Of a stretch of 37,309 bases of DNA, positions 35,042 through 37,309 are shown one piece after another. The stretch is taken from contig CAJXXI010000003.1 of the NCBI GenBank assembly GCA_913062615.1, positions 1-37,309 on the forward strand. The letters run 5' to 3'. This stretch comes from an uncultured bacterium. Lineage in GTDB: Bacteria; Planctomycetota; Phycisphaerae; Phycisphaerales; UBA1924. Below the pieces are notes generated by a model. That model did not search any database, was not told where the DNA came from, and saw only the letters and a program-made list of their open reading frames with translations. The stretch's first letter is position 1; the number at the start of each line of letters is the position of its first letter. The position numbers and the translations under genes were made by a program.

Positions 35042-35350
35042 ACGAAATCTCCTTATGTATGCGTACGAACACCTTGTTCATGACGCGTACAACAGATTGC
35101 AAGAAAATTCTAATTCTCGTAAACAGTGATTCGCTAAACCACAGGACTGGGTTTTTAACGACAGAACTATATCAAAAGCATAGGCATTATGATAGCGAAA
35201 CACAGAAATGAGTTTCTCTCCGATTTGCTTATCCACAATACATCCCTGCTTGTGCGCTTTTCTCCCCTCATCAACCACTCCCGTGCGCAAAATCCATGTG
35301 CTCCACTCCTCCCCCCTTGAGCCGCACCGCCGATGTGCGATAATTCCTGT

Positions 35351-36172
35351 ATGAGAATCAACACAGATCAAATCGAATCAAAGCCAACACTCACCAACGA
35401 ACTCCTCGAAGACCTCCTCGACCCTTCCATGTCCGCCTTCACCATGTGCAAAATCCACAGCCTCTCCCTCACCCAACTCGCCGACCTGCTCGAATCCGAA
35501 ACCTACTGCAACCTCACCGCCGACCTCGAGCGCATCTCAAACGCCCGCATCAAACTCATCGAACCCGAATCCCGCGCCCTGGCGAGCGCCCGCCTCGCCG
35601 ACCAACTCAAAGACAAACCAACAACCCCCGCCCACGCCGAAACCCAACGCAAGTCCGCCGCCAAAATCCTCTCTTCATCTCTGGTGGGACGGGCTTCCAG
35701 CCCGTCGTCCCCAACTCTCCTCCCCCGGGCCTCCGGGGGAGGTGGCACGCGAAGCGTGACGGAGGGGGCCTCCCCTTCCACTTCTTCTCCCGCCTCTTCA
35801 CCCACCACGCACAATACCCAGCCCATTGCGGATCGCGCCCCGCTCATACCGGGCACTGTGCATCGCCGAGGTGTCGAGCAGCTCGCCGAGTTGCACGCGG
35901 GTGATCGGAGGCAAACCATCAATCCCGAATCGTCGACTCAAGATAGTTCGATCCCGCTCGTCGAGTTGATCGAGCACCGATCCGAGCCGAGCATCGGGCA
36001 TCAGCCAACGATGCCAAGGGTTGACAATGTGTGTCCAATCGACGATCGCATGCCCGGGCGGAATCCGGCGCATCGCCTTGCCCGTGCTTGTCGGCTGGGC
36101 AATATCAGGTTGGTGCGAAGCAAACCGGGTGACCGCCAAACCAACCGGAGCCGCGATTCGACCTGTATGTGA
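35351..36172 (+). CDS. Small conserved-looking protein whose ORF continues through repeat sequence and antisense to the next gene (3' end suspect)
   Basis: Plausible protein to about residue 110 (MRINTDQIESKPTLTNELLEDLLDPSMSAFTMCKIHSLSLTQLADLLESETYCNLTADLERISNARIKLIEPESRALASARLADQLKDK...AAKIL), then repeat-derived SLVGRASSPSSPTLLPRASGGGGTRSVTEGASP. Confidence 0.5.
   Translation: MRINTDQIESKPTLTNELLEDLLDPSMSAFTMCKIHSLSLTQLADLLESETYCNLTADLERISNARIKLIEPESRALASARLADQLKDKPTTPAHAETQRKSAAKILSSSLVGRASSPSSPTLLPRASGGGGTRSVTEGASPSTSSPASSPTTHNTQPIADRAPLIPGTVHRRGVEQLAELHAGDRRQTINPESSTQDSSIPLVELIEHRSEPSIGHQPTMPRVDNVCPIDDRMPGRNPAHRLARACRLGNIRLVRSKPGDRQTNRSRDSTCM
35686..35710. repeat. Short palindromic repeat (gacgggct-tcc-agcccgtc)
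   Basis: Perfect 8-bp stem 35688-35695 / 35699-35706 flanked by ggg/ccc; adjacent to copy 2 of the 56-bp repeat. Confidence 0.75.
35719..35774. repeat. 56-bp double-hairpin dispersed repeat, copy 2
   Basis: cctcccccgggcctccgggggaggtggcacgcgaagcgtgacggagggggcctccc; 3 differences from 26592-26647, two of them a compensatory pair. Confidence 0.9.
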
Positions 36173-37309
36173 AGGGTTATACCGATCAATCGCATCGCTC
36201 GCGACCCGGATCCCGCCGAGCAACAAGAACGCAGCCCGCGATGGATCGAGCGTGTCGATCAACCCTTCGATCTGGATTTCGATTGTCGAGAGCACCAAGT
36301 GCAGCTGCGAACGGACGAGTTCTATCTTGAGCATCCCGGCATATCGTAGATCGGTTTCGATTTCGTCGAGTATCGGCCCAGAAGGTGTCGAACGATTGAG
36401 TGCTGCAAATCGATTCCCCGCGCGTGTCATCAGCAGCTCAAACGCCTTGCTCCGCATCTGTTCTTCATACACCACCGTAGGCTCGCGCGTCCGCATGGAG
36501 CTGATGAACGAGCACAGGTCGGTGTCGCCCTTGGTCATCAGCCCTTGGTTGACCGCTGGCGAATCGAGCACAGCATGGTCGATCGGCTCTTCGCCGATCG
36601 GCAGATCAAACGATCCGATCAACCCGGCACGCGCCGAGTTGATCGCGCGGAGGGTCGCGTTGTGCGATCGCCGAGCGTGCGCCGCGATCTGCGAAGGCTC
36701 GATCCCCCGCAGCACCGCCCGCAGCGCGAACATCTGATCGCGCGAGGTGGTTGGTCCTGGGTCGGTAAAGATCGGCTCGGCCCGTTCGTGATCGATCCGG
36801 ATCAAGGCTTTGCGGATACCCTCGTGCGAGTGCCCGGTCCGCATCGCAATCCGGGCGGCGGCTTGCGAGCGAGAGTAGTGCAGCCGATGCCGATACCCGA
36901 TCGCCCAGCGCTCGAACTTGGCGAGCTGGGATTCGACGATCCGATCAAACCGGGCGGCCTTGCCCAGCCGTTTGGTGTTGAGCGTTTCGAACCATTCGAC
37001 CGCCGATCGCATGAAGATGACGGATCGGCGTCCGCCCCCGAGATCGAGCCGACGGGCGATCAGTCCCAATCGCCGATACCGCTCGATGGTTTTGCGCGAG
37101 ACGCTCCAGCGTTTGGTGAGCGAGTCGATTGTTTCGTAGGGCTCGTGGATGTCGTCGGTGGTTAAGCCGGCGGCTTCGGAGATTTTTTCAGCGATGGCCG
37201 ACAGGTCGCCCCGGAGCGCTTCGCCGGGGACGAGATCCGGCGAGGTGATCTCTGGGCGATAGCCTGTGATCCGGAAGACGATCCAGTCTTGTGGGTAGAT
37301 GCCTTCGGG
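35798..37309 (-). CDS. Sigma-70-like protein with N-terminal MerR/excisionase-like HTH (5' end outside window)
   Basis: The frame extends past the listed ORF to the window edge (...ETIDSLTKRWSVSRKTIERYRRLGLIARRLDLGGGRRSVIFM...). Region-2-like MLKIELVRSQLHLVLSTIEIQIEGLIDTLDPSRAAFLLLGGIRVASDAIDRYNPSHTGRIAAPVGLAVTRFA; region-4-like LGSVLDQLDERDRTILSRRFGIDGLPPITRVQLGELLDTS. Confidence 0.75.
   Translation of the reverse strand, partial: PEGIYPQDWIVFRITGYRPEITSPDLVPGEALRGDLSAIAEKISEAAGLTTDDIHEPYETIDSLTKRWSVSRKTIERYRRLGLIARRLDLGGGRRSVIFMRSAVEWFETLNTKRLGKAARFDRIVESQLAKFERWAIGYRHRLHYSRSQAAARIAMRTGHSHEGIRKALIRIDHERAEPIFTDPGPTTSRDQMFALRAVLRGIEPSQIAAHARRSHNATLRAINSARAGLIGSFDLPIGEEPIDHAVLDSPAVNQGLMTKGDTDLCSFISSMRTREPTVVYEEQMRSKAFELLMTRAGNRFAALNRSTPSGPILDEIETDLRYAGMLKIELVRSQLHLVLSTIEIQIEGLIDTLDPSRAAFLLLGGIRVASDAIDRYNPSHTGRIAAPVGLAVTRFASHQPDIAQPTSTGKAMRRIPPGHAIVDWTHIVNPWHRWLMPDARLGSVLDQLDERDRTILSRRFGIDGLPPITRVQLGELLDTSAMHSARYERGAIRNGLGIVRGG

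Follow-up and report, generated by a model that had tools for sequence, protein, structure and literature searches.

Does a protein that joins helix-turn-helix (HTH) segments to a sigma70-like core, lacking the residues with which such factors melt and read promoters, still serve as a sigma factor, and if not, what has its sigma module become? This question is raised by a 503-codon open frame that reaches the end of the window, i.e. the entire contig of 37,309 nucleotides. Comparison with full-length relatives, which measure ~545-560 aa, indicates that ~50 N-terminal residues are absent from the window protein (Table 1). Searched on its own against Pfam, this protein gave a Sigma70_r4 match under the curated cut-off (E 2.9e-4) and a weak HTH_17 match (E 0.24); ten other, ordinary Sigma70_r2 genes are present elsewhere in the source genome. 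The first-pass annotation had proposed that one MerR/excisionase-like HTH was newly placed in front of a sigma core which had lost promoter melting and -35 reading while keeping its contacts to core RNA polymerase (RNAP), the product being a sigma-derived regulator or an anti-sigma-like competitor.

Table 1. Features of the gene for the eroded HTH-sigma protein; residues are those of the window protein.
Feature	Position	Strand	Remarks
Eroded HTH-sigma protein	35798..37309	-	C-terminal 503 aa + stop; N-terminus truncated by contig end
N-terminal module, residues 1-58	37136..37309	-	Conserved (YPQDWIVFRITGYRP...GEALRGDLSAIAEKIS); common to intact relatives
HTH 1, residues 59-110	36980..37135	-	MerR/excisionase-like (SLTKRWSVSRKTIERYRRLGLIARR); HTH_17/MerR_1 in relatives
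HTH 2, residues 126-176 (SRSQAAARIAMRTGHSHEGIRKALIRID)	36782..36934	-	Conserved in relatives; modelled helices pLDDT 61-80
HTH 3, residues 186-240	36590..36754	-	Homeodomain-like; HTH_23 in 24/26 intact, 6/28 eroded members
Region 1.2-like segment and next helix, residues 263-327	36329..36523	-	Profile alignment to intact relatives
Degenerate sigma region 2, residues 328-399	36113..36328	-	Profile alignment, residue columns, model
GRIAAPVGL, residues 383-391	36137..36163	-	Replaces FSTYATWW melting/-10 segment
Spacer between regions 2 and 4, residues 400-440	35990..36112	-	Short; too small for full sigma3 domain
Region 4 relic, residues 441-496 (LDERDRTILSRRFGIDG..)	35822..35989	-	HSARYERGAI replaces RERIRQIEAKAL helix

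A convergent open frame (MCDNSCMRINTDQIESKPTLTNELLEDLLDPSMSAF...; 35333-36172(+), noted over 35333-35700) is without a Pfam match, and its 3' part, which overlaps the eroded-sigma gene, is probably non-coding. Inside this frame and just downstream of the eroded-sigma gene lies the palindrome-like GGGACGGGCTTCCAGCCCGT (35686-35705(+)), which is found once in the window, against an expectation of 0.01 at <=3 mismatches, and resembles an arm of a small repeat element.

The intact relatives of the protein provide the key to its ancestry. Members of family f5 and of many families across the phylum display the same architecture with a canonical region 2 (FSTY..W) and region 4 (RQIE), as typified by VRANMRLVVSVARKH...GNRFSTYLTWALMRRFAQ and SAERARQIEHRAM in L040 and by KFSTYCSWAIMKNFART and TKERIRQIEARAL in L072. 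In these intact proteins and in the eroded ones alike the spacer between regions 2 and 4 has a median length of 44-45 aa, where sigma70 has its sigma3 domain. Profile-profile comparison (hhalign) of 28 eroded with 26 intact sequences yielded an alignment of 545 columns (E 1.2e-81, probability 100) that spans the N-terminal module through region 4 and places region 2 in the very segment where the first-pass annotation had put it. In searches against the PDB the intact profile recovered sigma factors at E 1.7e-53 and the eroded profile recovered SigA region 4 at E 3e-9, and the sigma similarity initially noticed by eye is thereby recovered with profile methods. Among the same sequences Pfam detects Sigma70_r2, at a threshold of E 0.01, in all 26 intact ones and in none of the 28 eroded ones; the corresponding counts are 26/26 and 21/28 for Sigma70_r4 and 23/26 and 15/28 for HTH_17, with MerR_1 in 4/28 eroded members. 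The MerR/excisionase-like character of the N-terminal HTH holds, and three HTH segments rather than one precede the sigma core. These are ancestral and not, as had been supposed, a new DNA-reading domain: acquisition as a novelty is rejected, since all of the intact relatives examined, from across the phylum, have them. Full-length orthology, the shared mqnA synteny described below and the tree of N-terminal columns together establish that the eroded protein is sigma70-derived by descent. Its sigma core has decayed behind an HTH domain that is old. Replacement of the f5 core by that of another sigma factor was judged unlikely because f5 shows FSTYxSWA, the pattern typical of the phylum, in which position 434 is occupied by Ala instead of Trp; the tree of the sigma part is too weakly supported to decide this point.

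The extent of the erosion was assessed in residue columns of 43 intact and 29 f1 members, with E. coli numbering verified on PDB chain 4jk1_X. D/E407, G408 and F427 are found in all 43 intact members, T429, Y430, E585 and R588 in 42 each, W433 in 40 and N409 in 38, and Ala takes the place of Trp at 434 in 41/43. N409, F427, T429, Y430 and W433 are each missing from all 29 f1 members; an acidic residue at 407 is retained in few of them only, and the canonical E585/R588 are absent among the residues listed for them. The columns bear out the replacement of RFSTYATWWI by RIAAPVGLAV and the absence of the RERVRQIE helix from a region 4 that is still recognizable, so that the melting loop is abnormal in the eroded members and the residues for promoter melting/-10 and -35 recognition are gone, as originally described. 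The claim that contacts to core RNAP are retained finds no support in the same comparison. Positions 403, 406, 407 and 409 of E. coli sigma contact the RNAP beta' coiled-coil (PMC8321222); intact members mostly carry E/D, S, D/E and N there, the f1 residues are scattered or hydrophobic, and the window protein has F, L, G and I. On the evidence of these columns the core-binding face is lost along with the promoter-facing residues; retained core binding is therefore unsupported. Thus, of the two roles initially offered, a sigma-derived regulator agrees with the sigma70 ancestry and with the maintenance of the gene, while a competitor still holding RNAP seems less likely. Erosion is accompanied by gains: GR[LI]AAP at 425-430 and HAARxER in the recognition helix are newly fixed in f1, across which the AAP motif and the DWT/W residues of the spacer are newly conserved.

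Structural modeling is in line with a surviving fold. An untemplated ColabFold model of residues 262-503, made with four sequences, has a pLDDT of 60 for this C-terminal half and of 70-80 in its region 2 part. Foldseek comparison with the PDB returned sigma-factor/RNAP entries in all of the best 50 rows, and SigmaA domain 2 (4x8k_A) was matched with a TMt of 0.65 on its own length over 135 columns (rmsd 3.7); given that the E-values are weak (0.012 at best), the fold match counts as support, not proof. At the modest confidence of this model, the sigma domain 2 fold seems to be kept in the eroded region 2. A model of the full-length 503 aa from four sequences had a pLDDT of 43 and was not used for fold assignment.

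The gene is present in 286/301 genomes of the order Phycisphaerales, usually as one full-length copy, with identities of 27-90% among the matches listed in the search of these 301 genomes. For pairs of close eroded relatives the whole-protein dN/dS is 0.10-0.26; the eroded region 2 gives 0.08, 0.15, 0.11, 0.25, 0.07 and 0.14 in the six computable pairs, mostly on a par with the HTH part, and region 4 is looser at 0.14-0.35. The near-universality of the gene, its mostly single copy and its low dN/dS rule out a pseudogene in the relatives, a possibility that the first-pass annotation had raised. The eroded gene is kept by purifying selection, and its sequence has been remodeled and is not decaying. 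Column conservation of region 2 is 0.74 in the intact members, where it is the most conserved part, versus 0.53 in f1, approximately the level of the HTH part; the corresponding values for HTH 1 are 0.65 and 0.64. In one locus (L021, G240:C36:115965-117552) the orthologue is split over two frames of 359 and 569 aa, due to a frameshift or an assembly error.

Of the 68 members examined in the order, six are the intact f5 proteins (the f5 member L147 is truncated by its contig end) and 62 are eroded, namely 29 in f1, 19 in f2, 1 in f3, 5 in f4 and 8 in f6. Region 4 is absent from all eight f6 members (L101-L107, L042), which stop right after region 2. The f4 member L161 (2280-3992(+); GQHFTAYMSFQMARAL, HPERGQHFTAYMSFQMARAL) keeps F427 and Y430 and has lost T429 and W433, and from these residues it looks like a half-eroded intermediate. 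The tree of N-terminal columns places f6 outside f5 + f1-f4 (99/86), and two erosions are therefore needed on that tree. A single eroded clade remains acceptable under the AU test (p 0.379), and in the RpoB tree f5 falls outside the group of eroded families, at a support that is weak (80/54). Erosion may accordingly have happened once or twice, the N-terminal tree favoring two events and the AU test and RpoB being compatible with one. We see an even chance for the broader scenario that an HTH-sigma70 fusion found across the phylum was converted, in one or two events inside a single order, into a near-universal transcription regulator without the residues for RNAP and promoter contact, with intact, half-eroded (f4, L161) and region-4-less (f6) stages all still living.

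The genomic neighborhood links these stages. In 58 loci of the order the gene immediately upstream, in the same orientation, is mqnA (Pfam VitK2_biosynth, PF02621, E 1.7e-40), of the menaquinone/futalosine pathway; among these loci are those of all six intact f5 proteins and of members of each of f1, f2, f3, f4 and f6. Since mqnA precedes intact and eroded genes alike, these are positional orthologues, one and the same gene at a shared location. The mqnA-linked loci include L036, L038, L039, L040, L042, L044, L045 and L101-L104; mqnA is missing upstream in L041, L046, L105, L158 and L164. Outside the order, no mqnA was observed in the vicinity of the gene in 39 loci, many of which have only ~1.5 kb of flank. 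The linkage suggests co-expression with menaquinone synthesis, which in itself identifies no regulatory target.

Taken together, we favor, with some confidence, the view that the protein has been inherited vertically, is orthologous to a sigma70-family factor of Planctomycetota and now works as a sigma-derived DNA-binding regulator, in which the sigma fold persists as a scaffold or as a domain for protein interaction. The ancestral plan would have comprised the N-terminal module, three HTH segments, sigma region 1.2, region 2, a short spacer and region 4. In f1-f4 and f6 the sigma core has lost its RNAP-facing and promoter-facing residues, with its helical fold apparently kept, and f6 has lost region 4 in addition. 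Such a protein would no longer form an initiating holoenzyme; as far as its sequence allows a prediction, it might regulate transcription by binding DNA with the HTH domains of its N-terminal part, and the sigma relic could mediate protein-protein contact, dimerization or a weak touch on RNAP or an anti-sigma-like partner. It is improbable that the protein is instead still a working sigma factor, highly divergent, that makes new contacts to the core and follows a new promoter code. Such a factor would account for a region 2 fold that is apparently kept and under strong purifying selection, for a recognizable region 4 and for the fixation of GR[LI]AAP and HAARxER in f1, and real ECF sigma factors are likewise without the FSTYATWW residues. 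Moreover, mutants of the sigma2.2 contact with beta' may be merely weakened in binding (PMC8321222), and the substitutions seen here may do likewise. However, the beta'-contacting positions were lost together with the melting and -35 residues, f6 keeps the gene without any region 4, and the conservation of region 2 is far under that of the intact members.

The absence of region 4 from f6 also speaks against a mimic comparable to PhyR, in which the relic would bind an anti-sigma factor or compete with a sigma factor, thereby freeing or blocking another sigma factor, and the HTH domains would set where and when. PhyR offers a precedent for a sigma fold with degenerated promoter and core surfaces (PMC8103513), the eroded module seems to have kept the fold and lost just those surfaces, and the ten other Sigma70_r2 genes of the genome are possible targets. 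Nevertheless, a receiver domain was detected by Pfam in 0/28 eroded members and no anti-sigma gene was recognized as a conserved neighbor, that neighbor being mqnA, and we regard this mode of action as unlikely. Still more doubtful is the notion that the sigma part has no function left and is slowly decaying, with the HTH domains alone being of importance. The faster evolution of region 4, its disappearance in f6 and the half-eroded f4 form (L161) would be expected of such decay, but a dN/dS that for most pairs is equally low in region 2 and in the HTH part and the newly conserved AAP motif and DWT/W spacer residues across f1 would not.

To our knowledge, there are few cases of a sigma factor becoming something else, and usually the end state alone is known. 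Here one orthologue, usually in one chromosomal place, is found in intact (f5 and many families of the phylum), half-eroded, fully remodeled (f1-f4) and region-4-less (f6) forms, and such paired orthologues make the use of a sigma fold after loss of the sigma role directly testable. As a practical warning, the eroded genes should not be annotated as sigma factors. A search of NCBIfam turned up no model dedicated to the HTH-sigma70 architecture, and a literature search among open-licence papers found none on this fusion family. A resemblance to MzaA, a defense-linked sigma, was dismissed as generic sigma similarity, far under the curated cut-off. Nor is the protein a MerR family member, which would combine a winged HTH with a C-terminal dimerization and effector domain; its C-terminal part is sigma-derived.

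With regard to known systems, the direct orthologues are the intact planctomycete HTH-sigma70 fusions (L040, L072, L077), which share the full-length architecture and, in f5, the mqnA neighbor with the eroded proteins; unlike these, they have canonical residues in regions 2 and 4 and are recognized by the sigma models of Pfam and NCBIfam. Planctomycetes ECFs with N-terminal extensions (former ECF87-89; PMC8103513) are similar in their extension and in having no sigma3, but from their description they are set apart as ECFs, whereas the HTH-sigma70 family has region 1.2 and, in intact members, FSTY/RQIE. The two-subunit sigma SigO-RsoA of Bacillus subtilis (PMC8103513) is likewise reminiscent in its unusual partition of sigma2 and sigma4 functions; however, SigO and RsoA together still initiate transcription, while the eroded protein has both parts in one chain and key residues missing in both. 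The closest parallel is with PhyR, the alphaproteobacterial response regulator with a sigma-like domain (PMC8103513), in that PhyR keeps a sigma fold with degenerated promoter-facing and core-facing surfaces and has given up the sigma role, as would probably hold for the eroded protein. PhyR joins an ECF-type mimic to a receiver domain and titrates NepR, whereas the eroded protein carries a sigma70 region 1.2-2-4 core behind three HTH segments, has no receiver domain and has orthologues with an intact core. Judged by this architecture, it is not a member of the PhyR family, and PhyR is its nearest known analogue.
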